NCBI GenBank assembly: GCA_031270395.1
Contig: JAISXU010000063.1
Location: 1 to 43,225 of the forward strand
DNA length: 43,225 nt
Source: Oscillospiraceae bacterium
GTDB lineage: Bacteria; Bacillota; Clostridia; Oscillospirales; Oscillospiraceae
Direction: 5' to 3'
Below the pieces are notes generated by a model. It was not told the origin of the DNA. It did not search any database and worked only from the letters and a program-made list of their open reading frames with translations. Of this stretch, positions 1,901 to 30,060 are shown piece by piece (positions within the stretch are counted from its first letter, which is position 1; the number at the start of each line of letters is the position of its first letter). A program made the translations under genes and the position numbers.

Positions 1901-3235
1901 ATGAGTGAATATGGCGTATTTGACGACATAAACGAGGCCATCGACGCGGCGTATGAGGCGCAGAAGACGCTGATTCGCAAGCACACTACAGCGGACAGGG
2001 ACGCTTTCATCGCGAGGATCAAGGAGAAATTTCTGGCAATTATCGACGAGGAGACAATCAAGGAATTCAACGAAACCGGCTACGGCAGACTGGATCAAAA
2101 GCTCATAAAAAACCGCGAGTCCATAGCCACAAACCCGGACACCTCCTCTCTCACGACGCGCGTCTTCTCCTCCAGCGACGGCATTACGATAGAGTATTGC
2201 GCGCCATACGGACTTGTGGGCGCCCTCACGCCGGTGACAAACGGCATCGCCACCGTCGCGAACAACGCGATGACGATGATCGCCGCCGGCAACTCGATCG
2301 TGTTCAACTGCCACCCGGCCGCGAAGCTGGCCGGCGCTATGGCCGTCAGTCTGGTGAACGAAGCCGTCATAGATCTGGGCGGCCCGCCCAACCTCGCCAC
2401 AATGGTTCGCATACCCGATACAAAGACGCTCGACGTCATAATGCAGTCGCCCAAGGTGAAGCTGCTCATCGGCACGGGCAGCGAGGTCATGGTCAAGCTG
2501 CTCATGTCGTCGAACAAAAAGGTAATAGCCGCCGGGCCCGGCAACCCGCCGACTATCATCGACGAAACCGCCGACATCAAGCGCGCCGCCGCGTTGCTCT
2601 ACGAAAACGTCCCCTTTGAGAACAACATGCTCTGCGTGCTCGAAAAAGAGGCGTTCGTCGTCGATGACGTATTCGACGAGTTTATCAATGAGATGACGCG
2701 CCTCGGTTCGCGTCTGCTCACGCCGGAGGAGGTCGAAAAGCTCGTGCCCGCCTCGCTCGTGCAAAACGCCGAGGGCGGCTGGGGCGCGAACAAGGCGATG
2801 GTCGGCAAGGACGCGAACGTCGTACTTAAAAACGCGGGTGTCGAGCCGTCGCCGGGCGATCTCCGTCTCGCTATTTGTATCGTGGATCACAAGCATCCCT
2901 TTGTGGAGGCCGAACAGATGATGCCCATCTTCCCCATCGTGAAGTGCAAGGACTTCGAGCAGGCGATGGACTGGGCAGTGGAGGCCGAGCACGGCTTCCG
3001 CCACACGGCCGGCGTTTGGACGCGCGACCTCGCGCGCGCGACGGAGTTCGGCAGGCGCATCGACTGTACCGCGCTCGCGCACAACGGCCCCACCGTCGCC
3101 ACGGCAGGCGTCGGCGGCGCCGGCGACGGTTCCGCCACGATAGCCACATCGACCGGAGAGGGCTTTACAAACCCCGCTTCCTTTACGCGGGTGCGCAGAT
3201 TCTCCATGGCGAACGGCGGCGGCTACATCATATAG
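1901..3235 (+). CDS. CoA-acylating aldehyde dehydrogenase (PduP/EutE family)
   Basis: Predicted to oxidise a short-chain aldehyde with NAD+ and CoA to an acyl-CoA. The family pattern is clear: GALTPVTNGIATVANNAM, AAGNSIVFNCHP, the GTGSEVM segment, GPGNPPTIIDETADI, and the catalytic cysteine as C245 in FENNMLC. At 444 residues it begins directly with the catalytic domain. The N-terminal targeting helix and linker seen on microcompartment PduP are absent. ATG 1901 is preceded by a GAAAGGG ribosome binding site and a consensus promoter. Its neighbours ptb and buk would convert its acyl-CoA product to acid plus ATP, and GRE1/GRE2 downstream are plausible aldehyde producers. Chain-length preference cannot be read from the sequence. 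Confidence 0.9.
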   Translation: MSEYGVFDDINEAIDAAYEAQKTLIRKHTTADRDAFIARIKEKFLAIIDEETIKEFNETGYGRLDQKLIKNRESIATNPDTSSLTTRVFSSSDGITIEYCAPYGLVGALTPVTNGIATVANNAMTMIAAGNSIVFNCHPAAKLAGAMAVSLVNEAVIDLGGPPNLATMVRIPDTKTLDVIMQSPKVKLLIGTGSEVMVKLLMSSNKKVIAAGPGNPPTIIDETADIKRAAALLYENVPFENNMLCVLEKEAFVVDDVFDEFINEMTRLGSRLLTPEEVEKLVPASLVQNAEGGWGANKAMVGKDANVVLKNAGVEPSPGDLRLAICIVDHKHPFVEAEQMMPIFPIVKCKDFEQAMDWAVEAEHGFRHTAGVWTRDLARATEFGRRIDCTALAHNGPTVATAGVGGAGDGSATIATSTGEGFTNPASFTRVRRFSMANGGGYII

Positions 3236-3250
3236 AATATGGCTTGCTTT

Positions 3251-3280
3251 GAAAGGCGCTTCCGGCGCCTTTCAACTTTT
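3251..3280 (+). terminator. Intercistronic hairpin between aldehyde dehydrogenase and ptb
   Basis: A perfect 9-bp stem (GAAAGGCGC 3251-3259, GCGCCTTTC 3265-3273) with a 5-nt loop is followed by AACTTTT. The short T-run suggests partial termination or 3'-end protection, which would set a lower level for ptb/buk than for the dehydrogenase, rather than a full operon end. Confidence 0.5.
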
Positions 3281-3298
3281 CAGGGGAGTGTTGCTGAT

Positions 3299-4204
3299 AT
3301 GATTTTAACGCGTCTGGCGCAGCTTGACGCCCTGGCGCTGGAAAAAGCGCCGGCGAGACGCGCCGTTGTAGTAGCGTCGCACGAGGAGCATATACTGAAA
3401 GCGGCGTCGCTCTCGAGGAAGAAGGGCATAGTGAGCCCCGTCCTCATCGGAAACGCCAAAAAAACGGAGGAGCTTTTACGCGGTCTGGGCGAGTCGCCCG
3501 GCGATTACGCCATCGTGCCGTGCGACGGCGACGCGGAATGTGTCGAGGTGGCGGTAGAGCTTGTCAAAAAGCGCGAGGCGGACTTCATCATCAAGGGTCT
3601 CATCGAGACGGCGGACCTGATGCGGCCCCTGCTCAACAAGGAAAAGGGCATCGTGAAGCCGGGCGCCTGCGTGTCCTCCATCGCCCTTATCGAGTCCGCG
3701 AAATACCACAAGCTGTTCGCGATGACGGACATGGGCATCAACACCTTTCCGGATCTCGAGCGCAAAAAGCAGATAATCAACAACGCCGTGTGGTTTATGC
3801 GCCGGATGGGCGCGGAAAAGCCAAAGGTCGCAGTCCTGTCCTCCGTCGAGCACGTCAACCCAAAGCAGGAGGACACCGTCGAGGCGGACGCGCTGAAAAA
3901 GCTGTGCCTGAGCGGAGACATTCCGGACTGCATCGTGGAGGGGCCGATCTCACTCGATTTGGCCGTCAAGAAGGAGACGGCCGCCGTCAAGCGTTACGAC
4001 AGCCCCGTCGCCGGAGACGCCGACATACTCATGGTTCCGAATATACTGGCGGGCAATCTGCTTATCAAGGGGATGGGGATATTCGGGGACATATCCACCG
4101 CGGACGCCGTGCTGGGCTTCGACGTCCCCGTCGTATTCGGCTCACGCGGGGGGCCCGTCGAGGCGAAATGCCTGTCCATAGCGCTGTGCGCGCTGATTTC
4201 GTGA
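3299..4204 (+). CDS. ptb: Phosphate butyryltransferase (phosphotransbutyrylase-type)
   Basis: Converts an acyl-CoA and phosphate to acyl-phosphate and CoA. The 301-residue length and sequence (DFIIKGLIETADLMRPLLN, AMTDMGINTFPDLE, the C-terminal VPNILAGNLLIKGM and GSRGGPVEAKCLSIALC) match the phosphate acetyl/butyryltransferase fold of the Ptb branch. The ATG at 3299 has GGGGAG ten bases upstream; an in-frame ATG at 3239 would include the intercistronic hairpin and is not favoured. It lies 13 nt before buk, the usual ptb-buk order. Substrates may include propionyl-, butyryl- or branched acyl-CoA; context with the aldehyde dehydrogenase argues for whatever acyl-CoA that enzyme makes. Confidence 0.9.
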   Translation: MILTRLAQLDALALEKAPARRAVVVASHEEHILKAASLSRKKGIVSPVLIGNAKKTEELLRGLGESPGDYAIVPCDGDAECVEVAVELVKKREADFIIKGLIETADLMRPLLNKEKGIVKPGACVSSIALIESAKYHKLFAMTDMGINTFPDLERKKQIINNAVWFMRRMGAEKPKVAVLSSVEHVNPKQEDTVEADALKKLCLSGDIPDCIVEGPISLDLAVKKETAAVKRYDSPVAGDADILMVPNILAGNLLIKGMGIFGDISTADAVLGFDVPVVFGSRGGPVEAKCLSIALCALIS

Positions 4205-4217
4205 GGAGGATGATTCT

Positions 4218-5342
4218 ATGGACGGTAACTTTATGATCCTTGTTATCAACTTTGGCTCTACCTCGACAAAAATAGCCGTATTCAATAAGAACGAGCCCGT
4301 CTTCAAGGTGAGCTTTGACCACGGTCAGGACGGGTATCCGAAAAAATTCAGGGATCTCGCCGAGCACGAGGCCTTCGCCACCGAGCTGATAAAAAATACG
4401 GCCGCCGCGCACGGCTTCAAGATGACCGATTTTGACGTGTTCGTCGCGCGCGGCGGCGGGCAGGTGTTCACAGAATCCGGCGCCTACCTCATAAACGACG
4501 TGATGATAGAGGACACAAAAAAAATCGGAGGCGACAGACATCCGGGCAAGCTCGGCCCGCGCATCGGATACGCGTTCTCGAAGGAATACGGCAAGAACGC
4601 GTACATCGTGAACGGCCCGAGCGTTGACGAATACGACGACGTCGCGCGTCTGACGGGTATGCCGGAGATATTGCGGACGAGTCACATTCACACTCTCAAC
4701 CAGAAGGAGGTCGCGTACCGCTACGCGGACGGCGTCGGGAGAAAATACGCCGATCTCAATCTCATCGTATGTCATATCGGCGGCGGCATCTCCGTAACGG
4801 CGCACAAAAACGGCCGCATGATCGACTCCACGGACATCATCGAGGGCGACGGGCCTATGAGTCCGACGCGCTCCGGCGCGCTGCCCGCAATACCGCTCGT
4901 CGAGCTCTGCTACAGCGGCAAGTACGACAAAGAGGCGCTGATGCTGAAAATCGTCAAGACGGGCGGTCTCATGGGTCTGCTCGGCACGGACGACCTGCGC
5001 GAGGTGCTGCGCAGGATCGACGGCGGCGACAAATTCGCCGGAATCGCCTATGAGACGATGATATACCAGATAGCGAAATACGCCGGCTCGATGGCCGTCG
5101 CGCTGGACGGCGCCGTGGACGCCATTTTGCTGACGGGCGGCATGGCCAGATCGTCGGAGCTCGTCGGCGCACTGACGCGAAAGCTCTCGTGGCTGGCTCC
5201 CGTGGCGGCGTTCCCGGGGGAATTTGAGATGGAGGGACTCGCGGCCGGGATCATGCGCGTCGTGGACGGCGGAGAGCCCGTCCGCGAGTATACGGGCGTG
5301 GACGTCTGGACCGGTTTTGAGGGACGGGAGGGGGTAACGTGA
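4218..5342 (+). CDS. buk: Butyrate kinase-type acyl kinase
   Basis: Transfers phosphate from acyl-phosphate to ADP, yielding carboxylate and ATP. ASKHA-fold acetokinase signatures are visible: N-terminal LVINFGSTSTKIAVF, HPGKLGPRIG, the VCHIGGGISVTAHKNGRMID segment and LTGGMARS near the C-terminus. Its 374 residues fit the family (about 355-375). AGGAGG lies 8 nt before ATG 4218. The last four bases (GTGA) overlap the GTG start of the next reductase, so the two are translationally coupled. With ptb and the aldehyde dehydrogenase it completes a route for substrate-level phosphorylation. Confidence 0.92.
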   Translation: MDGNFMILVINFGSTSTKIAVFNKNEPVFKVSFDHGQDGYPKKFRDLAEHEAFATELIKNTAAAHGFKMTDFDVFVARGGGQVFTESGAYLINDVMIEDTKKIGGDRHPGKLGPRIGYAFSKEYGKNAYIVNGPSVDEYDDVARLTGMPEILRTSHIHTLNQKEVAYRYADGVGRKYADLNLIVCHIGGGISVTAHKNGRMIDSTDIIEGDGPMSPTRSGALPAIPLVELCYSGKYDKEALMLKIVKTGGLMGLLGTDDLREVLRRIDGGDKFAGIAYETMIYQIAKYAGSMAVALDGAVDAILLTGGMARSSELVGALTRKLSWLAPVAAFPGEFEMEGLAAGIMRVVDGGEPVREYTGVDVWTGFEGREGVT

Positions 5343-7333
5343 GCTCGGTATACAAGCACTGCTTCTCGCCGATCACCATAAAGGGCGTCACATACAAGAA
5401 CCGGCTGGAGGTCTCGCCGCACGTGCCCGGCTGGGGCGCCTGCGACGGCACGGTCACGCGCGAGGTCGAGGCGTTCTGGGAGGGCTACGCCCGCGGCGGC
5501 GCGGCGCTGATAAATATGGGAAACTGCGCCATAGATATGGCGGAGGCAAAGGACGAGGCGATGCAGATCGATCTGTCCAGGGACGAGGTCATAGTCGGAC
5601 TGAGCCATCTGCGGGAATCGTGCGCGCGGTATGGCGCCATACTGTCGCCGGAGATAAACCACTGCGGGCGCGGCGCGGGCAAGTATTACCCCGAAAACAC
5701 GCGCTACGGCCCCTCGAATATACCCCTGCCCGACGAGGCGGCGCGTTACCTCGAGCAGGGCCTTCAGGTTCCCGACGTCGTGGAGATGACGACCGATAAG
5801 ATATACGAGACGATAGGGAAATTCGCCGCCGCCGCGTCCCGCTGCAAGCGCGCGGGCTTTCAGCATCTGCTGATACACGGCGCGCACGGCAACCTTATAA
5901 CGCAGTTTCTCAGCCCGATGTCAAATAAGCGCGCGGACAATTACGGCGGCGGACTCCATAACAGGGCGCGCTTCGCCGTAGAGACGATGCAGGCGATACG
6001 CAGCGCCGTGGGGAACGACATCGTCATAGAGATGCGCGTCAGCCCCGAGGACGGAATACCCGACGGCGTCGACTGCACCGAGCTCATCGAGTTTGCCCGT
6101 CTGCTGGAGGATTACGTTGACGTCTTCATCGTCTCATACGGGATGATGGGTATGCCCCATCTCATCCCGAAGATGATGGCGGGGCCGTACCACCCGTACA
6201 TGCACAATCTCGATTACATAAAGGCGTTCAAGGCCGGCTTGAAGCGCGCGAAAATATCGGCCGTCGGCACGCTGCAAAATATTGAGAATTGCGAGTACAT
6301 ACTCTCGAACGGATGGGCGGATTTCGCGGCGATGTGCCGCCCCTTTATAGCCGACCCGGAGCTTGCGCGCAAGGCGGCGCGCAACGGCGCGGACAACGTC
6401 AGGCCGTGCGTGCGGTGTATGCTGTGCGGTATGCGCGTGTCCGGCTGGTACACCTGCGGCTGCTCCGTCAACCCCTATAGCGGCAAGGAGAGCGAGTTCC
6501 CCGGAGGCGCCGTCGGGCGGGCGCAAAGGCCCAAAAAAGTTCTCATAGCCGGCGGCGGGCTCGCCGGAATGCAGGCGGCGTGGACGGGCGCCGAGCTTGG
6601 CCACGACGTGACGGTTTACGAAAAATCCGCCGAGCTGGGCGGGAACTTCAACCACGCCGGCGTCCTCCCGTTCAAGCAGGACGTAAAGGCGTTTTACGAC
6701 TATTTCATGCCGAGGGCGGCGGCGAGCGGGGCGAAATTCGTCCTGAACACGGAGGTGACGCGCGAGCTCGTCGAGCGCGAGAAGCCCGACGTCGTCATAG
6801 TCGCCACCGGCGCGGAGCACGTCAAGCCTCCCATACCCGGAATAGATAATCCGAACGTGGCGTTCGCGTACGAGGCCGATTGCGGCGCGGCGGCGCCCGG
6901 GAAGCGCGTCGCGATAATCGGCGCCGGCGTCGTCGGTCTCGAGAGCGCGCTCGCGCTCGCCCGCAAGGGCCACGCGGTGAGCGTCGTCGATTACGCGCGC
7001 CACGAGGACATCGCGGATATGAGCGCGCGCTTTGAGCTCCCGGGTCTGCTCGCGGAGGAGAGAGACGTCAGCATACGCTACGGCGTCCTCGTGGAGAGCA
7101 TCGAGCCGGGCGGACTCGTCTGCCGCGAGCGCGACACGTGCGTGCGCTTCGTAATCGAGTGCGACACCGTCCTTATCGCCGCGGGACTCCGCTCGCGCCG
7201 CGAGACGTTCGACGCCGTTCTACATAACGACGCCGTCAGCGAGTGCGACGTCTACATGATAGGCGACGTAATAAAGCCGCGTCAGATAGGCCAGGCGATA
7301 AACGAGGCCTTTGACCTCATTACCCATATATGA
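5339..7333 (+). CDS. NADH:flavin oxidoreductase, OYE/2,4-dienoyl-CoA reductase type (FMN, 4Fe-4S, FAD)
   Basis: 664 residues with the three-part layout of FadH, BaiCD and enoate reductases. An FMN TIM barrel (about 1-360) is followed by a Cys cluster RPCVRCMLC...CGCSVNP (about 358-382) for a 4Fe-4S centre. An FAD/NAD(P) Rossmann pair comes last (LIAGGGLAGMQAAW near 402; VAIIGAGVVGLESA near 523). In many relatives the barrel carries HGAHGYL, whose Tyr is the proton donor in FadH; here it reads HGAHGNL with N185. It therefore may reduce an unsaturated or other electrophilic intermediate with altered protonation, or act mainly in electron transfer. GTG 5339 overlaps the buk stop, placing it firmly in this operon. 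The substrate is not identifiable. Confidence 0.88.
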   Translation: MSSVYKHCFSPITIKGVTYKNRLEVSPHVPGWGACDGTVTREVEAFWEGYARGGAALINMGNCAIDMAEAKDEAMQIDLSRDEVIVGLSHLRESCARYGAILSPEINHCGRGAGKYYPENTRYGPSNIPLPDEAARYLEQGLQVPDVVEMTTDKIYETIGKFAAAASRCKRAGFQHLLIHGAHGNLITQFLSPMSNKRADNYGGGLHNRARFAVETMQAIRSAVGNDIVIEMRVSPEDGIPDGVDCTELIEFARLLEDYVDVFIVSYGMMGMPHLIPKMMAGPYHPYMHNLDYIKAFKAGLKRAKISAVGTLQNIENCEYILSNGWADFAAMCRPFIADPELARKAARNGADNVRPCVRCMLCGMRVSGWYTCGCSVNPYSGKESEFPGGAVGRAQRPKKVLIAGGGLAGMQAAWTGAELGHDVTVYEKSAELGGNFNHAGVLPFKQDVKAFYDYFMPRAAASGAKFVLNTEVTRELVEREKPDVVIVATGAEHVKPPIPGIDNPNVAFAYEADCGAAAPGKRVAIIGAGVVGLESALALARKGHAVSVVDYARHEDIADMSARFELPGLLAEERDVSIRYGVLVESIEPGGLVCRERDTCVRFVIECDTVLIAAGLRSRRETFDAVLHNDAVSECDVYMIGDVIKPRQIGQAINEAFDLITHI

Positions 7334-7423
7334 TGATTCGCCTGATGAATATTGTTATAATCTCCGCGTCAACTGGCATTACTTTTTGATATAGCCCTTT
7401 TCGCGTCTTTGCGCTCATTTCGC

Positions 7424-7452
7424 TTGACAATTACGACAACTCCTATTATCAT
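7424..7452 (+). promoter_or_regulatory. Candidate promoter of the transporter gene
   Basis: TTGACA (7424-7429), 17 bp, then TATCAT (7447-7452, five of six consensus bases). It lies in the 171-nt gap after the reductase and about 50 nt before the transporter ATG, so the transporter and downstream GREs may form a second transcription unit. Confidence 0.5.
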
Positions 7453-7504
7453 CTCAGGTATGGCCTTGTGCATATTGACAATATTAATTGGAGGGATTGA
7501 TTCG

Positions 7505-8935
7505 ATGGAAAAGGTATTAAAAACCCCGGTGCGCATGAGATTAGGATGGTTCATCGCGCAGACCTTGTTCTCCGCTGTCACGTGCATAGAGATCTTCTAC
7601 TACACAGGGTTCCTGGTTGATGTTGCGCTGATTCCGCTCGTCCTCGTCGGGGTCATCAAGACGACGACGGCCATACTGGACTTCGCGTCGTCGATCGTGC
7701 TGCCCATCATCATGCAAAAGCTGAAGCTCCCCTGGGGTAAGTACCGCTCGTATTTCGTGCTGCTCCCCGCTATTTACTGCATTTTCGGCGCCCTCGCAAT
7801 CTCTAAGGTCATTGCGGGAAACGACCCGGCGGGTATGACGATCAACACGATAGTGATAGTCGTATCGTACTTCATCTCTCGCTTCTTGTGGAATCTGACG
7901 GACGCCGCATCTTCAACCTTTACCTCGGTGGCGGCAAGACAGTATCCCGACGCGCAGGTAACGCTCTCCATGTGGAGAGGCAGGGGTTCCGCATCCTCCT
8001 CGCTGTGGTTCGGTGCCATCGCCGGCCCCATGATAGCGCTCTTTATCAAAGCGACGGGTTCAAACACGTGGGGTTACACGCTAATGGCGCTTGTATTCTT
8101 CCTCATCAACATCGTGGGCTACAGAGTGCTGTTCTGGTCGACGAAGCCCCTGAAGCAGATTGATATGGAAGAGTTGAACGTCGAGAATACGGCGGAGAAC
8201 AAGATCAAGCTGGTCGATATTTTCAAGGCAGTAGGCACAAACACACCGCTGCTCATCCTGTGGATATACGATGTGTTCCGTCAACTGGCGATGTTCTACG
8301 GGAGCGGCGTCATGTTCTTCTATTTCGCTCATTCGCTCAAAGCCGATTGGGCGATTTCTACCTCGGTTCTGGTAGGCGGTATCGGGGGCTTTCTCTCAGG
8401 CTTCATAGCCGCGCCGATTGTCGCGAAACTCGGCACAAAGCGGTCACTGCTGCTGTCGATGTTCGGCGGCGCCGTTGTGGGCATAATCATGTACATACTG
8501 AACCTGAAAGACCCTTGGGCGGTCATGCTGATACGGGCAATCACTGGTCTTTTGCTGGGTTCGTCCATGGTTCTGATTACAAAGACGTACGCCGACTGCT
8601 CTATCTACGCCGAGTATAAAACCGGCAAGGACATGAGAGCCACCGTCATGGCGTCCTTCCCGATACCGATAAAAATAATGTCGGTCTTTATCGGCCTTGT
8701 TACGACAGCCGCAATCGCTTACACGGGATATAACGCGGAGAAGGTGCAGGCGGGCGAGATGATCATTGACGAGCTCATGATCCGTAGGTTTGACCAGATA
8801 TTCTTCGTAGTACCCGCAATATTCTCCGCCATTGCCGGTATACTCATGCTGTTCTACCCGTCGGATAAAAAATTCCAGGAGTGGGGCAATGAGGTCAATA
8901 AGCGCAAGGGTATCACTTCGACTGCGGCGCAATAA
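7505..8935 (+). CDS. GPH/MFS-like cation symporter
   Basis: A 476-residue, very hydrophobic protein with about 12 predicted membrane segments and short loops, resembling the glycoside-pentoside-hexuronide:cation symporter/MFS_2 group. It has a charged early loop (KLPWGKYRSYF), as in GPH proteins with RxGKYRPY-like motifs, a central cytoplasmic loop (about 247-275) and a second charged loop (KLGTKRS). ATG 7505 follows GGAGGG with 9-nt spacing; the in-frame ATG at 7409 lies upstream of this site and adds a non-homologous leader. Located between the reductase and GRE1, it is the obvious uptake system for the substrate of this cluster; GPH members are not restricted to sugars. Confidence 0.83.
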   Translation: MEKVLKTPVRMRLGWFIAQTLFSAVTCIEIFYYTGFLVDVALIPLVLVGVIKTTTAILDFASSIVLPIIMQKLKLPWGKYRSYFVLLPAIYCIFGALAISKVIAGNDPAGMTINTIVIVVSYFISRFLWNLTDAASSTFTSVAARQYPDAQVTLSMWRGRGSASSSLWFGAIAGPMIALFIKATGSNTWGYTLMALVFFLINIVGYRVLFWSTKPLKQIDMEELNVENTAENKIKLVDIFKAVGTNTPLLILWIYDVFRQLAMFYGSGVMFFYFAHSLKADWAISTSVLVGGIGGFLSGFIAAPIVAKLGTKRSLLLSMFGGAVVGIIMYILNLKDPWAVMLIRAITGLLLGSSMVLITKTYADCSIYAEYKTGKDMRATVMASFPIPIKIMSVFIGLVTTAAIAYTGYNAEKVQAGEMIIDELMIRRFDQIFFVVPAIFSAIAGILMLFYPSDKKFQEWGNEVNKRKGITSTAAQ

Positions 8936-9007
8936 GAAGCCGCGCCCACAGCCATTCGCGCCGCTCGCGCCTTACGGTGAAATGTCCGTACCGCATTGTT
9001 GGAGCTT

Positions 9008-9039
9008 GGTGTTTTCGGGGATTTTTCCCCGAAAACACC
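9008..9039. repeat. 14-bp perfect palindrome
   Basis: GGTGTTTTCGGGGA (9008-9021) pairs perfectly with 9026-9039 around a 4-nt TTTT loop. It sits in the 179-nt gap between transporter and GRE1. No T-run follows on either strand, so it may stabilise the transporter mRNA 3' end or be a mobile palindrome rather than a classical terminator. Confidence 0.6.
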
Positions 9040-9040
9040 G

Positions 9041-9090
9041 CGTTTGCGGTAGCGAGCGGCGTGTCTGCGGCGGCGTAGTCATAACAAACG
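9041..9090. repeat. CGTTTG...CAAACG bounded element upstream of GRE1
   Basis: CGTTTG (9041-9046) and CAAACG (9085-9090) bound a GC-rich interior. The same hexamer ends bracket intergenic palindromes before GRE2 (11571-11607), the MATE gene (14246-14274) and the phosphoesterase (18728-18756). This copy is the most degenerate; only the ends and a GCGAGC-like centre persist. Confidence 0.35.
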
Positions 9091-9114
9091 AGTTAAGTTA
9101 AGGGGGTAACAGTA

Positions 9115-11562
9115 ATGTATCAATTCAAACCCGCATCGGAGCGAGTCCTGAATTTCCGGAACCGCATCCGAAACAGAATCATCCGCGGCGACGCGGAGAG
9201 GACGCTCATTCAGGCGAGGGCGCACGAGAAATATAAAAACGTCGTGCCGATCATCAAACGCGCGCTCACCACGAAGGAGGTCTGCGAAAATCTGACCATC
9301 TACATCGACGACGACGAGATGTTCGTCGGAAGCAAATCGAAGTATTTCTGCGGCTCGACGGCTATGGGCTGGGTGCTCGACAGGGGCGCCGACGGTCTTC
9401 CCGTCATCGAAAAGGAGTGGGAGCTGCACGACGACGGTCTCTGGCACAATCCGGAGGGTGAAGAACTGCGGCTTATGATAGCGCAGGAGGACATCGACGC
9501 GTTGCGCTCCGTGGAGAAAGAAATCTGGGAGGCAAATCCCAACAGGATATCCTCGGCTTGGGCGCCTGACGGCGCCTATGACTTTTTTGCTCTGGAGGCG
9601 TCGGACTACGACGTGGGCGGGCAAAACATCATGTGGATACCCTGCGGGCACCTGACGCCCGGCTACGCGAAGATCATCAACACGGGCTACGGCGCCATCC
9701 GCGCTCAGGCGCAGTCGTGGATGGACGCGCACGAGGGCAATATCATGGGCGACGACATGCGCAAGTACATGTTCTATAAATCCGCGACGATAGCCTGCGA
9801 CGGCGCGTCCGCCCTGATACGCCGCCACGCGGAGGCGTGCCTTGAAAAGGCAAAGACGTGCGAGAGCGCCGAGCGCAAGGCGGAGCTGCACAAGATGGCC
9901 GACAGCCTGATTTGGATATCGGAAAATCCCGCGCGCACCTTCTGGGAGGCGTGCCAGGCGGCGCTGATGTATCAACTGCTGCTCGGACTCGACGCCGGCT
10001 ATCCGGCGATCGCCTTCGGGCGTTTTGACCAGTACGCGTGGCCCTTCCTCAAGCGCGAGCTCGAGGAAGGCACGCTCACGGAGGACGACGCGCAGGAGCT
10101 GGTGGACGCGTTTTTTCTAAAGTCCAACACCTTCTATGAGGTCGGACTTGGCAAGGTGGCAAAGGTGACGGGCATCGGGAACACGTACCAGCACACCACG
10201 CTCGGCGGCGTCATACCGGAGACGGGCGAGGACGCCAGCAACCGTCTCACCTTTATGACTCTGGAGACGGTGGGGCGGCTGAAACTGCACGACCCGACGA
10301 TTTCGCTCCGCGTACACAAGAACACGCCCGACGCGGTGTGGGACTGCGCTCTGGCGACGTCAAAGCTCGTCGGCGGTCTGCCGCTGTTCCAAAACGACGA
10401 CGTAATCATCCCCGGTCTTATGAAGGAGCTCGGCTTCACGCTGGAGGACGCGCGCGACTACGCGATCATCGGCTGCCAGGAGGTTGTAGGCTCCGGAAAC
10501 GACTACCCCGCGCCGAACGGGACTCACGCACACGCCTCCGTACATCACGCGGTCATATTCGACATGGCTATCAACAACGGTATCAATCCCAAGAACGGCA
10601 AGCAGGCGAAGCTGCGCACAGGGTATCTCTACGAGATGAATTCCATCGAGGAAGTGCGCGAGGCGTACAAAAAAATGGCCGACTACATACTCAAATGGTA
10701 TGTGACCATCAACAATTACGGGGAGTACCTCTCCGGCTACAACTTCCCGCACGCCATGCTGTCCATCTCGATGGACGGTTGTATGGAAAAGGGCGTGGAC
10801 GCGGCGGAGGGCGGCTGTAAATACAACTCCTACGGCGGCACCGCCACGGGACTGGCGACGATCGCCGACTCCCTCTCAACGATCAAATACATGTGCTTTG
10901 ACAACAAATTCGTCACGACGCGCGAGCTCTACGACGCCGTCATGGCCAACTGGGAGGGCCACGAGCCCCTGCGTCAGCGGATACTCTCCGAGGTGCCGCA
11001 CTACGGCAACGCCGACCCGTACGTCGATATGGAGATGAAGTTCTGCGTAGACAACTACTACAGGATGTGCAGCGAGTGCTCCAGTCAGCGCAGCAGCGTG
11101 TACAAGGCCGGCATGTACGGCGCCGCGGATCACGTCGTACAGGGCTGGAACGCCTGGGCCACGCCGGACGGCCGCAAAACCGGCGAGCCCATCGCCGACG
11201 CGATGAGTCCGGCGCAGTCGCGCGATAAAAACGGCCCGACGGCGGTGTTCGTCTCGTCGTGCTGCTTCGATCACACGCGCTTTATGGACGGCATCGCCCT
11301 CAATCTGCGTATGCACCCGACCGTCCTCAGCCGCGACGACGGCATAACGAAGCTGCGCGACATGACTAAGGCGTATTTCGAGGCGGGAGGACTGGAGTGC
11401 CAGTATAACGTCGTCGATACGGCGACGCTGCGCTCGGCGAAGGAAATGCCGAGCGATTACAAGGACCTTGTCGTCCGCATCGCGGGATATTCGGCGTACT
11501 TCGTAGAACTCGACAAGGATATGCAGGACGACATCATCTCCCGCAATGAGAATGTCATATAA
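9115..11562 (+). CDS. Glycyl radical enzyme GRE1 (PFL-like, unassigned substrate)
   Basis: 815 residues with a PFL-like N-terminal domain and the C-terminal glycyl radical motif VRIAGYSAYF, radical residue G791. The thiyl cysteine is C454 in IIGCQEVVGSGNDY with the Cys-x-Glu pair (C454, E456) typical of dehydratases, lyases and arylacetate decarboxylases and unlike the Cys-Cys of true pyruvate formate-lyase. The usual Pro after Glu is Val, and a His-containing stretch (GTHAHASVHH) follows, setting it apart from GRE2 and GRE3. ATG 9115 has AAGGGGG upstream. It is cytoplasmic and needs a radical-SAM activase, which is not in this window. Its place after a CoA-aldehyde dehydrogenase, Ptb, Buk and a transporter suggests it makes an aldehyde; the substrate is unknown. 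Confidence 0.9.
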   Translation: MYQFKPASERVLNFRNRIRNRIIRGDAERTLIQARAHEKYKNVVPIIKRALTTKEVCENLTIYIDDDEMFVGSKSKYFCGSTAMGWVLDRGADGLPVIEKEWELHDDGLWHNPEGEELRLMIAQEDIDALRSVEKEIWEANPNRISSAWAPDGAYDFFALEASDYDVGGQNIMWIPCGHLTPGYAKIINTGYGAIRAQAQSWMDAHEGNIMGDDMRKYMFYKSATIACDGASALIRRHAEACLEKAKTCESAERKAELHKMADSLIWISENPARTFWEACQAALMYQLLLGLDAGYPAIAFGRFDQYAWPFLKRELEEGTLTEDDAQELVDAFFLKSNTFYEVGLGKVAKVTGIGNTYQHTTLGGVIPETGEDASNRLTFMTLETVGRLKLHDPTISLRVHKNTPDAVWDCALATSKLVGGLPLFQNDDVIIPGLMKELGFTLEDARDYAIIGCQEVVGSGNDYPAPNGTHAHASVHHAVIFDMAINNGINPKNGKQAKLRTGYLYEMNSIEEVREAYKKMADYILKWYVTINNYGEYLSGYNFPHAMLSISMDGCMEKGVDAAEGGCKYNSYGGTATGLATIADSLSTIKYMCFDNKFVTTRELYDAVMANWEGHEPLRQRILSEVPHYGNADPYVDMEMKFCVDNYYRMCSECSSQRSSVYKAGMYGAADHVVQGWNAWATPDGRKTGEPIADAMSPAQSRDKNGPTAVFVSSCCFDHTRFMDGIALNLRMHPTVLSRDDGITKLRDMTKAYFEAGGLECQYNVVDTATLRSAKEMPSDYKDLVVRIAGYSAYFVELDKDMQDDIISRNENVI

Positions 11563-11612
11563 TATCATTTCGTTTGCAATGGCTGCGCCATTATAGCGGC
11601 ACAAACGATATT
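11561..11612. repeat. Palindromic element between GRE1 and GRE2
   Basis: Nested inverted repeats: AATATC/GATATT ends, then CGTTTG (11571-11576) with CAAACG (11602-11607), and a perfect inner hairpin AATGGC-TGC-GCCATT (11578-11592). It fills the 70-nt gap between the two GRE genes, starting at the GRE1 stop and ending 20 nt before the GRE2 start, so it may modulate relative expression of the two. Confidence 0.55.
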
Positions 11613-11632
11613 ATTCTATAAGGGGTACGCAA

Positions 11633-14107
11633 ATGTTTACATTTGAACCGCTGAGCGGACGCATTGAGGCGCTCCGCAAAAAACGCGCCGAGGCCAACGA
11701 CGGAAACATCTGGCTAGACGCGGAGAGGACAAAAATTTACACCGATTATTACAGGGAGCACGAGAACGAATACCCCATCCTGAAGCGCGCCGGCGCCGTA
11801 TACGAGTGGTGCGCGAAAAAGACCTTGCGGCTCGACGACGACGACGTGTTCGTCGGGAATCTCGGCAGGACGTACCGCTCGAATCACTTCTATACCGAGT
11901 GGGGCACGGGCTGGATGGAGGATTTGGCGACGCAGAGCGACGAGGATTTCAAGGCGCAATTTCAGGGCGATTACTGCTATGTTAAAATGACTGACGAGGA
12001 TCGCCAAATCTTCATCGACGCCGGTAAATACTGGAAAAACAAGACGATTTCCGCGTGTATGGCGGGCATTGTTCCGCAGGCGATATGGGACCTCGGGCCG
12101 GACGGCGTCACGTCGTTCGCCAAGGGGCCGTTCCTGAGCAACATGGCGCAGGGCCACTACTGCCCCAACTTCAACAAGGCGATACACGTCGGCTTTAAGG
12201 CTATCAAGGCCGACGCCGAGGCGCGGCTCGCGGAGCTGCACGGCCGCATATTCGGCTCGGACGCCGAAAAATACACGTTCTACAGGGCCGTAGCCACGGT
12301 CTGCGACGCCGCCGTCCTCCTGGCAAAACGGTACGCCGCCCTCGCCGCGGAAAAGGCCGCAAGCGCGACGGGAGAGCGCCGCGAGGAGCTTTTGAAAATG
12401 GCGGACTCGCTCGGCTGGATCATGGAAAACCCGTGCCGCAATACGTGGGAGGCGCTCGAGGTCATCTTGTTATATCAGATGATCCTCATAGCCGACGCGC
12501 AGCAGCACGGCCTCACCCTCGGCCGCATAGACCAATACGCCGGGTATTTCACGGACGAGGAACTGAAAAACGGCAGCATGACGCAGGCGGAGGCGCAGGA
12601 CCTCGCCGACGCGTTCATCTTGAAGCTCGGCGACCATCTCGCCGTACTCGGCATCAGGACGCAGCACAGCGAGTTTCAGGGCTCTCTCAGCGGCATGACC
12701 GCGGGCGAGTCCGGCGTCGGCTTCTCGTACGCCACAAACGGACAGCATTTCACCGTGGGCGGCAAGAAGAAGGACGGGACTGACGCGACAAACGCGCTGA
12801 CACTCTGCTTCCTCAAATCCTACGGACGGCTCTTCCTCTCGGATCCGTCCATATCCGTCAGGGTACACCGTGACACTCCCGACATCGTCTGGCAGCTCTC
12901 CATCGAGGCGTCAAAGCTGTCCGGCGGTATGCCGACTATAGAAAACGACGACGTCATCATCCCGGCGCTCATGGGCCGCGGCCTGTCGCTGGAGGACGCT
13001 AACGACTACTGCATCATAGGCTGCGTCGAGCCGTGCGGCTGCGGCAACGAGTGGGCGGCGTGCGGCAGCACGGGCACCGAGAGCTTCCTGAACTATCTCG
13101 GCTGCGTCGTACACATGATAAATAATGGCTCAAATCCTCAGACCGGCTTTGACGGGGGCGTCAAAACGGGCTATCTGTATGATTACAAGACCTTCGACGA
13201 GGTCAAGGCCGCCTTTGAGGCGCAGGTACGTTTCTTCCTCGACTGGCACATCAGCTTTGTGAACTTCTATGAGGTCGTCTACTCCCAAAATTTCCCGTGT
13301 ATCACGGCCTCGACTACGTTCGACGGCTGCATGGAGAAGGGTATGGACGTCACGCGCGGAGGCGCCAAGTACAACTCCACCGGCTTTACGGCGTGCGGCA
13401 TAGGCAACGTCGCGGACAGTCTCGCCGCCATCAAATATCTCTGCTTTGACAAGAAGCTCGTTTCACAGCGCGAGCTCTACGACGCGTTGAGGGCGGATTG
13501 GGAAGGGTATGAAAATCTGCGCGAGACTGTAGTCAACGAGGTTCCGCACTACGGCAACGCGGATCCGTACGTAGACGAGCTCGCCGTGTGGGCTATGGAG
13601 CTGTACGCCGACCACATGAACGCCGCCACGGGCCCGCGCGGCCACTATACGGGCGGCACGTTCACCATGACCACGCACATAGATTTCGGTCTGGGCACAG
13701 TCGCGACGCCCGACGGGCGGAAGGAGGGAGACCCCCTCGCCGACGCGATTTCACCGCGTCAGGGCTTTGACAAGAACGGCCCGACGACGTATCTTATCTC
13801 CGCCGCCCAGCTGCCGCACGTCAAGCTCGGCAACGGCGACCAGTTGAATATCCGGTTCTCGCCCCGCGCCGTGGAGGGCGACTCCGGCACCGTCAAGCTG
13901 CGCGATATGTTCAAGACGTACTTTGACATGGGAGGGATGCAGGTTCAGTTCAACGTGGTGGGACTGGAGACGCTGCGGGCGGCTCAGGATAAACCGGCCG
14001 ACCACAAAAATCTCATCGTGAGGATCGCCGGCTTCTCCGTATACTTCGTGGAAATGCCGCGCGTCATTCAGGACGATTTCATCACCCGCACGGAGCATTT
14101 CAGTTGA
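11633..14107 (+). CDS. Glycyl radical enzyme GRE2 (dehydratase/lyase-like)
   Basis: 824 residues, PFL-like domain plus C-terminal radical motif VRIAGFSVYF with G800. The active-site cysteine is C464 in IIGCVEP, so C464-x-E466-P, as in glycerol/propanediol dehydratase, CutC and hydroxyproline dehydratase. The following sequence, CGCGNEWAACGSTGTES, has extra cysteines and closely matches GRE3 (AGCGTEWPACGGTGTES) but not GRE1. ATG 11633 follows AAGGGG. It lies 70 nt downstream of GRE1, so the two are likely co-transcribed and may act on related or successive substrates. No activase is nearby. It could be a dehydratase feeding the aldehyde dehydrogenase at 1901; this is inferred from context only. 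Confidence 0.9.
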   Translation: MFTFEPLSGRIEALRKKRAEANDGNIWLDAERTKIYTDYYREHENEYPILKRAGAVYEWCAKKTLRLDDDDVFVGNLGRTYRSNHFYTEWGTGWMEDLATQSDEDFKAQFQGDYCYVKMTDEDRQIFIDAGKYWKNKTISACMAGIVPQAIWDLGPDGVTSFAKGPFLSNMAQGHYCPNFNKAIHVGFKAIKADAEARLAELHGRIFGSDAEKYTFYRAVATVCDAAVLLAKRYAALAAEKAASATGERREELLKMADSLGWIMENPCRNTWEALEVILLYQMILIADAQQHGLTLGRIDQYAGYFTDEELKNGSMTQAEAQDLADAFILKLGDHLAVLGIRTQHSEFQGSLSGMTAGESGVGFSYATNGQHFTVGGKKKDGTDATNALTLCFLKSYGRLFLSDPSISVRVHRDTPDIVWQLSIEASKLSGGMPTIENDDVIIPALMGRGLSLEDANDYCIIGCVEPCGCGNEWAACGSTGTESFLNYLGCVVHMINNGSNPQTGFDGGVKTGYLYDYKTFDEVKAAFEAQVRFFLDWHISFVNFYEVVYSQNFPCITASTTFDGCMEKGMDVTRGGAKYNSTGFTACGIGNVADSLAAIKYLCFDKKLVSQRELYDALRADWEGYENLRETVVNEVPHYGNADPYVDELAVWAMELYADHMNAATGPRGHYTGGTFTMTTHIDFGLGTVATPDGRKEGDPLADAISPRQGFDKNGPTTYLISAAQLPHVKLGNGDQLNIRFSPRAVEGDSGTVKLRDMFKTYFDMGGMQVQFNVVGLETLRAAQDKPADHKNLIVRIAGFSVYFVEMPRVIQDDFITRTEHFS

Positions 14108-14274: not shown

Positions 14275-14353
14275 AAGTTCAAAAAAATTCTGTTGCACTT
14301 TTCGCCGCCGTGTGATAGGATACGGAAAAATGTCTTTGGAGAGTGCAAAAGTA

Positions 14354-15802
14354 ATGATGGAAAAAATAAAGTCCCTTTTCGGCGCTCAGGATATGACTGA
14401 GGGCAGTATACCCGTTTGTCTGCTCAAATTCTCTATTCCGCTGCTCATAGGGAGCATAGCGCAGATGCTGTACACGGCGGCCGACCGCGTCATCGTCGGC
14501 CGGTTCTTGGGGGACGGCGCGCTCGGCGCGGTGGGCGCCGCGATACCCATCCAAAATATCTTTCTCGTGCTGTTCATGGCGATAGGCGGCGGCGTCATGA
14601 CTCTGGTGTCCCAATATTTCGGCGCGAAGGACAACGAAAATCTCGGCATGTCCATAGGCAACGCCATAACCCTCGTGGCGCTGGCGTGCGTGTTCGTCAC
14701 CGCCATAGCCACGCCGCTCACGGGGCCCATCCTCAGGCTGCTGAAAACGCGCGAGGAGATGATGGGCATGGCTTACGACTATCTGTTCATCCTGTTCCTC
14801 GGCATGGCCGGCAACGGCTTCTACAACATTTTTTCCGGAATTCTGCGCGGGCTGGGCGACTCGCTCTTTCCGCTGCTCATTCTGTTGGGGACTGTCGTAC
14901 TCAACATAATCCTCGATATACTTTTTGTCGCGCCGTGGGGACTCAATATGGGCATCGCCGGGGCGGCGTGGGCGACGGTGATAGCGCAGATACTCTCATC
15001 CATCGTCTGTATGACGCGCGTTCTGCGCCTTAATAATCTGTATAAAATCAACCGCCGCACACTGCGGCTAAATTCCGCTACCGTGCGGCAAATAGCGCGT
15101 CTGGGTATTCCCTCCGGAATACAGATGGCTATAATGTTCGTATCCGGTCTCGTAGTACAGCCGTTCATAATGAATATGGGGCCGCTCGCGATGCCGTCAA
15201 TCACGGCGACGCAGAGCGTGGACGGCTTCGCGCTCATGCCGAGTCAGGCGTTTTCTATGGCGGCCGGCACGTTCACCGGTCAGAACATAGGCGCGGGACG
15301 TATGGACAGGGTAAAAACCGGCAGTAAGACGGTGTTTTTAATGTGTCTCGGGTTCTCCATCGTCATGGTTTCCTTGATACAGATATTCGGCAGAAGCATG
15401 TTCAGGCTGTTTACCGATACGGAGCTGCTCGTCTCACTGTGCCGCTATTACATACTCATAATGATACCGGCATACCTCATAATGTCCGTGAACATGTCAT
15501 ATCAGGGAGTCATGCGCGGCGCCGGCGACGCCGTCGGCACCATGTGGCTGTCCGTGCTGATAAACGTCATCTTCAAGCTGCCGCTCACGTTTCTGATGAT
15601 ACACCTCACAAAGGGTATGACGCTGTATCTCAACGTAAACGGCGTCAGAACGGCCTCCGAGTGGCCGGACGGCAATCCGGCGTCGCTGTTTTACTCGATG
15701 CTAATCTGCGTGGTCATAGGTATGTTCATGACTATCGTGTATTACAGGCGCGGCACGTGGAAAACCAAATACGTCGTCATGCGGGATAATCCCTCGAAAT
15801 AA
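14354..15802 (+). CDS. MATE family efflux transporter (first copy)
   Basis: 482 residues with about 12 membrane segments and MATE family features: FSIPLLIGSIAQMLYTAADRVIVGRFLG, MTLVSQYFGAKD, a repeated second half (GIPSGIQMAIMFVSG, MPSQAFSMAAGTFTGQNIGAGRMDRV). Exports cationic drugs or metabolites against Na+ or H+. ATG 14354 follows GGAGAG with 10-nt spacing and begins MMEKIKSLFGAQDMT, nearly the same leader as the second MATE (17162-18640); the in-frame ATG at 14312 lacks such support. It follows the GRE genes in the same direction, separated by three palindromes. A link to GRE metabolism is possible but unproven. Confidence 0.88.
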   Translation: MMEKIKSLFGAQDMTEGSIPVCLLKFSIPLLIGSIAQMLYTAADRVIVGRFLGDGALGAVGAAIPIQNIFLVLFMAIGGGVMTLVSQYFGAKDNENLGMSIGNAITLVALACVFVTAIATPLTGPILRLLKTREEMMGMAYDYLFILFLGMAGNGFYNIFSGILRGLGDSLFPLLILLGTVVLNIILDILFVAPWGLNMGIAGAAWATVIAQILSSIVCMTRVLRLNNLYKINRRTLRLNSATVRQIARLGIPSGIQMAIMFVSGLVVQPFIMNMGPLAMPSITATQSVDGFALMPSQAFSMAAGTFTGQNIGAGRMDRVKTGSKTVFLMCLGFSIVMVSLIQIFGRSMFRLFTDTELLVSLCRYYILIMIPAYLIMSVNMSYQGVMRGAGDAVGTMWLSVLINVIFKLPLTFLMIHLTKGMTLYLNVNGVRTASEWPDGNPASLFYSMLICVVIGMFMTIVYYRRGTWKTKYVVMRDNPSK

Positions 15803-24665: not shown

Positions 24666-27110
24666 CTATATCGACAGCTCCGTCCTGCGGATGAGGTCTT
24701 TCTGCCCGTCCGGATGCAGCTCGACGAAATATGCCGAGAATCCGGCGACGCGGACGACGAGGTCCTTGTATTTATCCGGGTTCTCCTGGGCGTCCTTGAG
24801 CGTTTTCGCGCTTACGACGTTGATTTGAAGCTCCATGCCGCCCATGCCGAAATACGTTTGGATGAGCTGCGAGAGCTTGCGGACGCCGTCCTCGCCATTA
24901 AGCGCGTTCGGGTGGAATTTGAGGTTCATAAGCGTCCCGTTCGGGAAATCGGTCTGCTTGATCGCCGCCACGGAGGTGACGACGGACGTCGGGCCGTTCT
25001 TGTCGTACCCCTGGACAGGCGCTATACCGTCGGCCAGCGGTTCGCCCGCGAAGCGTCCGTCGGGCGTCGCCTTTGTGCAGTACCCGAACATGACGTTCGT
25101 CGTCACGGGATACAGCCCGGCGCTGTAGCGTCCGCGCGGGCCTGTCAGGGAGTTCACGGCGTCGGCAAAGCACTTCGCGGCAAACGTCGCGTGCTCGTCG
25201 CACTCCTGTATGCCATTGCCGTAGTGGTCGCACTCGTTGAGGATATACGCGCGCATTTCCTCATAGCCCTCCCAGTTGGCCATGAGCGCGTCGTAGAGCT
25301 CGCGCGTCGTGTACTTCTTTTTGTCAAAGCAGACTTGTTTTATAATGTTGAGGCTGTCCGCCACATTGCCTACGCCCACGCCGGAATCGCCCGTGGAGTT
25401 GTATTTCGCGCCTCCCCACATGACGTCCATGCCCTTTTCCATGCAGCCCTCCATAGTGGCCGACACGAGCGGCTGCGGCAGCACCTCGCGCGCGATGTAC
25501 TCAAATGAATTGATATTCATGATATGCCATTTGACGAATAACTCTACCTGCGCCTTGTACGCCTGCTGCACCTGCTCGAACGAGGTCATGTCGTACAGAT
25601 AACCCGTGGGCGCTCCGACGCGCACGTTGGGCGTACCGGGAGGCGCCGGCATGAAGGCGTTGAGCATCGGGACCGGCGTGTAGCCGTCGTTGATGCCGAG
25701 CAGCAGGGCGTTCGCGAGATTCATGTAGCTCTCCGTACCCGTACCGCCGCAAGCCGGCCATTCCGTACCGCAGCCGGCGGGCTCGACGCAGCCTATCAGC
25801 GTGCAGTTGCGCGCGTCCTCCAGCGACAGCCCGCGCGACATCAGCGCCGGGATTATTACCTCGTCGTTCTCGTACGTCGGCACTCCGCCGCAGCGTTTTG
25901 TGACCTCAATCGCCGCCTCCCACAGCTCGGGCGGCGTATTCTTGTGGATGCGCAGCGCCTGCGGCGGGTCGTGCAGGAGGAGACGTCCTACCGACTGCAG
26001 CATGCCGAACGTCGCCTTGTTTGAAGCGTCGAGGCCGTCCTTATCCACGCCGCCCATCGTCATGAGCTGCCCCGACGTATAGCCGGGATTCGACTGCGTG
26101 GCGCCATAGCTCCACGGCTTATTCATCTCGGCGACCTTTAGATAGAAAAGATCAAGTATCTCCTGTGCGTAATCCTCCGTGAGCGTCCCGTTTTCGATGT
26201 CGCGCTCTAAGTAATCGCCCAGATACTGATCCACGCGCCCGAAGCTCATGCCGTGCATATTCGCGTCAAGGCAGAGCGCCGTCTGGTACATGAACAGGCA
26301 CTGCACCGCGTCAAGGAAATTGCGCGCGGGCTTCTCGACGGTCCAGTTGAGGGAGTCCGCCATCATCTCGAGCTCTTTTTTGCGCGCGGGATTGCTTTCG
26401 GCCGCCGCCTTTTCCTCCGCGAGACGCGCGTAACGCTTCGTCAGCGTTATTATGCCGTCGCAGACTATTGAGACGGCGCGGTAGAAATTATACTGGTCTA
26501 TGCTCTTGCCGGGGAGCGCGTTTGCTATGAACTCGGCGCGCTTTGCCTCCGCCTCGGCCTTAATTGCGCCAAAGCCCTTGCGGATGGCCGTGTTGTAGCC
26601 GGTGGCAAAGTGTCCGACAGGCGAGCCGGTCTGCCCGCGGCTTGAGAACATCGTCACGCCGTTGCCGGCGACGGGAAAATACTCGTCCACGATCTGCGCG
26701 TCCGTCTTGGCGCTCATGCACTCCTTCATCCAGAAGTCCACCGTCGAGAGTATATAATCGCGGTCGTCCTCCGAGATGATGTACGGGTCGATCTCGCGCG
26801 TGGAGATATAGCGGTTGCCGACCTCCTCCTTGAGCCAGTCGACGGAGTTTTCCGGGTACAGCGCCGCCGCTCGGTATTTGGCGGACTGCGCCCCGACGAT
26901 TATCTCGCCGTCGTCGATGCGGATGGGAATGTTTTCCAGAATGTTCTTCAGGTTCTTGGCGCGTTTGAGTATTCCCTGCATGTCGGGATTATTCATGTAG
27001 AACTCCGTTATGAGCCTGTAACGCGCCGTACAGATCTCCGGGTCGGTGCTGCGGTACTTCTCGCGCATTGCCGCCACACGCGGCGTGATGGGTCTGAATG
27101 TGAACGCCAT
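24666..27110 (-). CDS. Glycyl radical enzyme GRE3 (dehydratase/lyase-like)
   Basis: 814 residues with PFL-like domain and C-terminal radical motif VRVAGFSAYF, radical residue G790. The active site is C441-V-E443-P in TLIGCVEPAGCGTEW. The segment after it, ACGGTGTES, closely matches GRE2, making GRE2 and GRE3 sister types distinct from GRE1. The Cys-x-Glu-Pro pattern is that of dehydratases and C-N/C-S lyases; substrate not assignable. AAAGGAG precedes ATG 27110, and a promoter (TTGCAA-17-TATAAT) lies upstream on this strand. It is divergent from a UroD-like methyltransferase-superfamily gene and near a urea/amide-type ABC importer. No activase is encoded nearby. Confidence 0.9.
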   Translation of the reverse strand: MAFTFRPITPRVAAMREKYRSTDPEICTARYRLITEFYMNNPDMQGILKRAKNLKNILENIPIRIDDGEIIVGAQSAKYRAAALYPENSVDWLKEEVGNRYISTREIDPYIISEDDRDYILSTVDFWMKECMSAKTDAQIVDEYFPVAGNGVTMFSSRGQTGSPVGHFATGYNTAIRKGFGAIKAEAEAKRAEFIANALPGKSIDQYNFYRAVSIVCDGIITLTKRYARLAEEKAAAESNPARKKELEMMADSLNWTVEKPARNFLDAVQCLFMYQTALCLDANMHGMSFGRVDQYLGDYLERDIENGTLTEDYAQEILDLFYLKVAEMNKPWSYGATQSNPGYTSGQLMTMGGVDKDGLDASNKATFGMLQSVGRLLLHDPPQALRIHKNTPPELWEAAIEVTKRCGGVPTYENDEVIIPALMSRGLSLEDARNCTLIGCVEPAGCGTEWPACGGTGTESYMNLANALLLGINDGYTPVPMLNAFMPAPPGTPNVRVGAPTGYLYDMTSFEQVQQAYKAQVELFVKWHIMNINSFEYIAREVLPQPLVSATMEGCMEKGMDVMWGGAKYNSTGDSGVGVGNVADSLNIIKQVCFDKKKYTTRELYDALMANWEGYEEMRAYILNECDHYGNGIQECDEHATFAAKCFADAVNSLTGPRGRYSAGLYPVTTNVMFGYCTKATPDGRFAGEPLADGIAPVQGYDKNGPTSVVTSVAAIKQTDFPNGTLMNLKFHPNALNGEDGVRKLSQLIQTYFGMGGMELQINVVSAKTLKDAQENPDKYKDLVVRVAGFSAYFVELHPDGQKDLIRRTELSI

Positions 27111-27202
27111 GGTATCAACTCCTTTGATATAATGATTGTGGCATTTTGCGGCGCCCGATAGAAACGGGCCGCCGCCGACAGGCGATTATCCGTCTGAGTC
27201 AT

Positions 27203-27231
27203 ATTATAATACACCCCGGCGCGGATTGCAA
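27203..27231 (-). promoter_or_regulatory. Promoter of GRE3
   Basis: Minus-strand TTGCAA (27231-27226), 17 bp, perfect TATAAT (27208-27203), about 93 nt upstream of the GRE3 ATG. It lies in an unusually AT-rich divergent spacer (27210-27290) with ATT repeats. Confidence 0.6.
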
Positions 27232-27296
27232 TACATAATTGACAATAATTATTATTATTACTGTTTTCTCAAACAGTCGCCGACGAAAATTTTTTC

Positions 27297-27326
27297 TTGT
27301 CCCGAGGCGTGGTATGGGTATATAAT
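27297..27326 (+). promoter_or_regulatory. Promoter of the UroD-like gene
   Basis: TTGTCC (27297-27302), 18 bp, perfect TATAAT (27321-27326). A small hairpin CGGCGCC-GCAT-GGCGCCG (27354-27371) sits in the leader before the GGAGG ribosome binding site. Confidence 0.55.
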
Positions 27327-27394
27327 GGCACGGGTGACAGGAGACGTACCGCACGGCGCCGCATGGCGCCGAAAAAAGCTATGGAGGTTTCGAT

Positions 27395-30056: not shown

Positions 30057-30060
30057 TTGC

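Follow-up and report, generated by a model that had tools for sequence, protein, structure and literature searches.

The window considered here, 43,225 nucleotides of an Oscillospiraceae bacterium, is the whole of one contig (JAISXU010000063.1; C89 below) of a draft genome (GCA_031270395.1; 95 contigs, 2.17 Mb, 88.7% complete), and flanking genes beyond the contig ends cannot be read by continuity. It carries a run of seven genes, all intact and on the plus strand, for a CoA-acylating aldehyde dehydrogenase (AldDH), a phosphotransacylase of the Ptb type, a butyrate-kinase-family enzyme (Buk), an OYE-type reductase, a GPH-type transporter and two glycyl radical enzymes (GREs), GRE1 and GRE2. 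By sequence comparison, the AldDH-Ptb-Buk triad is a real, mobile and shell-free module, fit to take an aldehyde to an acid plus ATP. The seven genes read as two tandem units, AldDH-Ptb-Buk(-OYE) and GPH-GRE1-GRE2, and we lean towards the view that these jointly provide a shell-free, GRE-fed and ATP-forming fermentation route. The initial annotation had described the same seven genes in this direction and place, and its account stands apart from two corrected starts (Ptb and GPH) and a third GRE on the minus strand, which it left out.

The initial annotation had also noted a Ptb/Buk arm with no shell gene in the 43 kb, and had allowed for shell genes just outside the window. The former statement is upheld; as for the latter, no BMC shell domain (PF00936) was found in the window, in the whole assembly (88.7% complete) or in a genome of a sister species of the same genus (G093, its cluster on contig L047). 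The AldDH itself points the same way. It was compared across 92 loci, some taken from a collection of named genomes and the others from the family to which the window belongs. At loci with at least 45% identity to the window's enzyme, shell genes were seen in 0 of 31 (27 distinct contigs) and Ptb lay directly downstream in 30; at 44% identity or less, shell genes were present in 55 of 61 loci and Ptb in none. The Ptb-linked AldDHs, together with one that has no Ptb, form a single clade (support 1.0) which includes the enzyme of the window. All 53 measurable shell-linked AldDHs have at least 24 residues ahead of the core, versus 0 in the window, and these N-terminal extras resemble encapsulation peptides in many cases. 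The Ptb-linked clade mostly lacks such an extension: some of its reading frames extend upstream, mostly with a later Met near the core, and one AldDH (genome G085) has a 26-residue extension bearing its own Met. The window thus has every trait of the shell-free module, namely an AldDH from the clade linked to Ptb, followed directly by Ptb and Buk, and no shell. A PduL-type phosphotransacylase is encoded elsewhere in the genome (C34:64555-65073), so that the lack of PduL holds for the window only. The contrast between a shell-free clade with Ptb/Buk and shell-bound relatives that never have Ptb makes the need for a compartment directly testable.

The division into two units follows from two conserved promoters and from the overlap of the reductase start with the Buk stop. 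The hexamers, spacing and position of the promoter before AldDH (P1) are kept in the sister species, and so are those of the promoter before GPH (P2), despite the absence there of the reductase between Buk and GPH. The order of both units is unchanged in that species. A stem-loop in the AldDH-Ptb gap was considered as a conserved element and rejected, as the sister-species contig has no such hairpin.

Glycyl radical enzymes beside the triad

In a sample of 101 genomes of the family, an AldDH at 49% identity or more occurs in five genomes of four genera. A GRE lies on the same strand within 9 kb of the triad AldDH in all five, where a rough, purely positional expectation on draft genomes would be 12-20% per genome. 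The partners are GRE1 and GRE2 in the window and in G093; the other orders are AldDH-Ptb-Buk-GRE-OYE-OYE (G060), AldDH-Ptb-Buk-MtnA-FAH-GRE (G085) and GRE-GRE-activase-AldDH-Ptb-FeADH (G027), FeADH being an iron alcohol dehydrogenase. Two Coriobacteriales loci (L130, L131) have an HpfG-like GRE divergent from FeADH-AldDH-Ptb-Buk, and two genomes (G068, G091) have a second, unrelated acylating AldDH together with Ptb, Buk, an HpfG-type GRE and an activase. The idea that the dehydrogenase-ptb-buk-reductase and GRE blocks might never be linked elsewhere, which the initial annotation had raised against itself, is therefore not borne out as far as linkage goes; the GREs, though, are different ones in the three other genera and the two Coriobacteriales genomes. 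Nor are the seven genes one conserved, co-occurring unit: the sister species has no ene-reductase, other genera have other GREs, and two promoters split the set. Because the GRE partner changes from genus to genus, and is absent from many triad loci, the triad is best described as a plug-in module supplied by differing aldehyde sources. Some of these loci (e.g. L153, L139) are badly gene-called, and genes there were read from six-frame comparison.

Two of the partner GREs deserve a separate word. That of G060 (L106:12514-14913) has a GCVDG motif and, unlike dehydratases, is without His164, His281 and the usual Glu. Downstream of the triad in G085 (L107:2059-10937) come MtnA, an FAA-hydrolase and then a GRE above the HpfG cut-off (1054 vs 1000); the locus may encode a 3-sulfopropionaldehyde route that uses Ptb/Buk, or else be linked to thiomethyl-ribose salvage. 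The closest relatives of the triad outside the genus include several (among L126, L127, L130, L131 and L151, which come from Coriobacteriales and from unclassified metagenome-assembled genomes, MAGs) whose genomes bear the label Coriobacteriales. As this is another phylum, transfer among gut bacteria is suggested.

GRE1 and GRE2 both have the two GRE domains (PFL-like PF02901 and the glycyl loop PF01228), the catalytic Cys and the glycyl Gly. Against the solved GREs neither exceeds about 30% identity, and glycerol dehydratase comes first by sequence. The predicted structure of GRE1 (mean pLDDT 82) reaches TM-scores of 0.82-0.91 against all GREs and singles out no reaction; glycerol and propanediol dehydratases rank first in its fold search. 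The active sites were compared in an alignment that joined glycerol dehydratase, YbiW and CutC to 90 GREs of the collected loci. In the numbering of the glycerol dehydratase structure 1r8w, GRE1 keeps His164, Cys433 and Glu435 and is without His281, Ser282 and Asp447. GRE2 keeps His281 as well and lacks Ser282 and Asp447, and the third GRE of the window (GRE3) is like GRE2 in keeping the former and losing the latter two. We take these residues to be substrate contacts in glycerol dehydratase. In view of the missing dehydratase residues, the analogy to choline and propanediol pathways drawn in the initial annotation does not identify the reaction.

Several assignments of GRE1 and GRE2 were tried and rejected. 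As glycerol or propanediol dehydratases they fall below the NCBIfam cut-offs and differ in active-site residues; as choline (CutC), hydroxyproline (HypD), HPAD and indoleacetate decarboxylase (IAD) enzymes they score under half of the NCBIfam equivalog cut-off in every case; and against the HpfG sulfonate enzymes (NF048009) they score 403 and 446 bits, with a cut-off of 1000.

GRE1 belongs to a clade with a nearly invariant GCQE motif, with about 60 members observed across three or more families of the class; His164, Cys433, Glu435 and the glycyl Gly are kept in it, and His281 and Asp447 are lost. OYE genes are enriched beside GRE1-type GREs, 10 of 12 lying within 3 kb, and UROD-type genes show some enrichment, while an activase was rejected as a conserved neighbour since it is not enriched. 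In the two further families with GRE1-type genes, some loci add GRE2-type genes, activases and UROD-type genes, and no triad. A role for GRE1 as microcompartment cargo was likewise dismissed: one GRE1-type gene does lie near shell genes (G027:C13), but with ethanolamine-like neighbours and an unrelated gene between. One member of the clade in the window's own genome (L045:12097-14595, on contig C85) has GFQE for GCQE, its catalytic Cys replaced by Phe and the glycyl loop kept; it could be a dead enzyme, a regulatory enzyme or an assembly error. On contig C38 of the same genome (L041:4880-9393), a divergent GRE (GCLG, with the active-site Glu missing) is directly followed by an OYE-type reductase, and the same pair occurs in G093 (L222).

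A candidate route and its alternatives

In the route that we favour, GPH would import a polar organic substrate, which GRE1 and/or GRE2, after activation by an activase encoded elsewhere, would convert by radical elimination to an aldehyde or to a compound one step away from it. AldDH would then form the acyl-CoA from the aldehyde, NAD+ and CoA, Ptb would exchange CoA for phosphate, and Buk would release a carboxylic acid while forming ATP. The OYE-type reductase may re-oxidise the NADH by reducing an unsaturated partner or side-product; in several sister loci an iron alcohol dehydrogenase may do so instead. Computation shows which families the genes belong to, the shell-free clade of Ptb-linked AldDHs, the promoter conservation, the recurrent linkage of triad and GRE, and the OYE enrichment by GRE1-type GREs; we infer the direction of flux, its flow between the units, that AldDH acts on the GRE product, and how NADH is balanced.

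A number of observations weigh against this route. GRE1 and GRE2 adjoin the triad only in the window's genus; numerous triad loci lack a nearby GRE, and FeADH and an MFS transporter are common there; elsewhere GRE1-type genes stand mostly alone or with OYE, UROD or activase genes, with no AldDH of the Ptb-linked clade. The sister-species cluster does without the OYE reductase, the two promoters may put the GRE unit under separate control, and the chance estimate for the GRE-triad linkage is a simple one. The dehydratase residues missing from GRE1 and GRE2 suggest that aldehyde formation is not assured. The two units might be unrelated neighbours, with AldDH-Ptb-Buk(-OYE) as a stand-alone energy module taking alcohols or aldehydes to acids and GPH-GRE1-GRE2 serving another pathway from its own promoter. 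The split between P1 and P2 fits this reading, and so do the closest AldDHs outside the genus (59-64% identity), some of them beside FeADH and an MFS transporter, others surrounded by housekeeping genes, and the relatives of GRE1 and GRE2 in two other families (L215, L218), which cluster with activases and UROD-type genes and have no triad. We nevertheless hold it to be unlikely, if worth taking seriously, since in the family sample each of the four genera with the triad has a GRE beside it, differing as these GREs are, and the order of the units is retained in the sister species.

It is improbable that the triad runs in reverse, with Buk and Ptb spending ATP to activate an acid which AldDH reduces to the aldehyde as an electron sink. 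The reactions of AldDH, Ptb and Buk are all reversible, and iron alcohol dehydrogenases accompany some triads; but ATP would be a cost to a fermenter, no alcohol dehydrogenase lies beside the triad in the window, and the related shell-linked AldDHs run oxidatively in the pathways studied. The GREs could also act after the triad, AldDH-Ptb-Buk making an arylacetate and ATP and a GRE decarboxylating the product, as for p-cresol or skatole. In Clostridium scatologenes the Ptb/Buk homologues HpdJ/HpdK do form p-hydroxyphenylacetate ahead of HPAD (PMC13285125). GRE1 and GRE2, however, lie far under the cut-offs of HPAD (292.5 and 247.1; cut-off 1150) and of indoleacetate decarboxylase (343.8 and 315; cut-off 1100), and the arylacetate decarboxylase comes 48th in the fold search with GRE1, which makes this arrangement very improbable in our judgement.

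Gene assignments and genomic setting

The features of the window are collected in Table 1. The AldDH passes the subfamily cut-off of NCBIfam PRK15398 (403), its match beginning at position 31 of the 465 of the profile. Ptb misses the Ptb equivalog cut-off (243.5 vs 410.5) and is placed at subfamily level only. The reductase lies below every equivalog cut-off, its nearest solved relatives being NCR (6qkg) and 2,4-dienoyl-CoA reductase (1ps9), and GPH scores 112.7 against TIGR00792, under the cut-off of 231.4. The corrected starts are the most likely ones, that of Ptb being preceded by a GGGGAG ribosome site and that of GPH by GGAGGG. MATE genes, one of which follows the cluster, recur in the neighbourhood of GRE1-type genes.

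Table 1. Genes and sequence elements of the window
Feature	Position	Strand	Remarks
Promoter P1	1830-1857	+	TTGACA-16-TATAAT, 12/12; sigma-70-type; about 43 nt upstream of the AldDH start
AldDH, EutE/PduP type	1901-3235	+	PRK15398, 469 bits; no N-terminal encapsulation-type extension
Stem-loop, AldDH-Ptb gap	3249-3275	+	68-nt stretch folds at -23.4 kcal/mol, z -2.24
Phosphotransacylase, Ptb type	3299-4204	+	PF01515, 137.6 bits; reading frame opens at 3239, likely start 3299
Buk, butyrate kinase family	4218-5342	+	TIGR02707, 378.6 bits vs equivalog cut-off 289.1
OYE/FadH/BaiCD-type flavin Fe-S oxidoreductase	5339-7333	+	PF00724 and PF07992
Promoter P2, before GPH	7424-7452	+	TTGACA-17-TATCAT, 11/12
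GPH/MFS_2-type cation symporter	7505-8935	+	PF13347, 162 bits
GRE1, GCQE clade	9115-11562	+	PF02901, 477 bits; PF01228, 92 bits; Cys454, Glu456, glycyl Gly791
GRE2, uncharacterised subfamily	11633-14107	+	GCVEP active-site motif; PF02901, 513 bits; PF01228, 93 bits
MATE exporter	14312-15802	+	Same direction as the cluster; membership uncertain
GRE3	24666-27110	-	Third GRE of the window

The GRE content of the genome is a stranger point than the cluster itself. There are 13 GREs (contigs C12, C14, C20, C22, C29, C38, C39, C51, C61, C85 and C89) and three activases over the cut-off (C61, C20, C51), with none of the latter on the window contig. Most genomes of the family sample have 0 or 1 GRE, and in a set of genera the candidates number 9 to about 24 and the activases two to nine; at most ten candidates per genome were scored, and the upper counts refer to candidates, not confirmed genes. 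The lineage seems to have made radical enzymes a main catabolic tool, and animal guts to hold GRE subfamilies of unplaced chemistry. As a tentative proposal, with somewhat less than an even chance of being right, the GCQE-clade GREs catalyse a reaction new to GREs and, in a gut lineage whose 2-Mb genomes each hold 13 to perhaps 24 GREs and few activases, feed the shell-free AldDH-Ptb-Buk module. The closest AldDH among the named genomes (93% identity) is that of the MAG Oscillospiraceae bacterium Pcl387_bin43, whose isolate code we take to be a termite-gut series name; the bacterium is a gut dweller, probably from termites.

Elsewhere in the window (24666-33307), GRE3 has as neighbours a URO-D-type gene (27395-28513) and an importer of the branched-chain-amino-acid ABC type encoded by five genes, and pairs of GRE and URO-D genes recur among relatives. 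A THF riboswitch (35011-35108; 81.7 bits, gathering threshold 36) precedes an ECF-type transporter gene and a FolC-like gene. A Cas3 HD domain at the contig end (42512-42931) points to a type I CRISPR system cut by the assembly.

Comparison with known systems

A literature search on termite-gut GREs, GREs with Ptb, and AldDH with Ptb/Buk, with most subscription journals outside its reach, returned precedents and not this cluster. One of the closest is the dihydroxypropanesulfonate pathway of Enterococcus gilvus (HpfG-HpfD-HpfX-HpfYZ), which leads from a GRE via an acylating AldDH to ATP with no microcompartment mentioned (PMC11489063). It shares with the route proposed here a GRE that forms an aldehyde, a CoA-acylating dehydrogenase and substrate-level ATP; its ATP, however, comes from an ADP-forming CoA ligase in place of Ptb/Buk, its GRE is HpfG and it has no OYE. 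In Bilophila wadsworthia an acylating AldDH gene adjoins IslA, of a GRE group that is usually not colocalised with shell genes (PMC6386719). The IslA-AdhE isethionate route is alike in these two respects, and unlike in its C-S lyase, its AdhE-type AldDH, its Pta/AckA arm and its sulfite respiration. The initial annotation's "undescribed free-cytosol route" thus has precedents in kind.

The GRE microcompartments for choline, propanediol and fucose/rhamnose also pair a GRE with an AldDH of the EutE/PduP type, and the nearest solved relative of the window's AldDH is that of Clostridium phytofermentans (4c3s). In contrast to them, the window has no shell, no N-terminal extension on its AldDH, Ptb/Buk instead of PduL, and no activase in the cluster. 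The B12-independent glycerol dehydratase of Clostridium butyricum (1r8w) is the best match of GRE1 (30% identity, TM-score 0.91), with the shared and missing residues given above. Another likeness is found in p-cresol formation, where Ptb/Buk homologues also serve a GRE pathway (PMC13285125), but there the acyl-CoA comes from a keto-acid ferredoxin oxidoreductase and the GRE acts last. Free-cytosol routes from a GRE via an aldehyde to ATP are therefore already known (HpfG-HpfX-HpfYZ and IslA-AdhE); what is new here is that the Ptb/Buk arm goes with shell-type AldDHs of a shell-free clade, and that the GREs belong to unplaced subfamilies.

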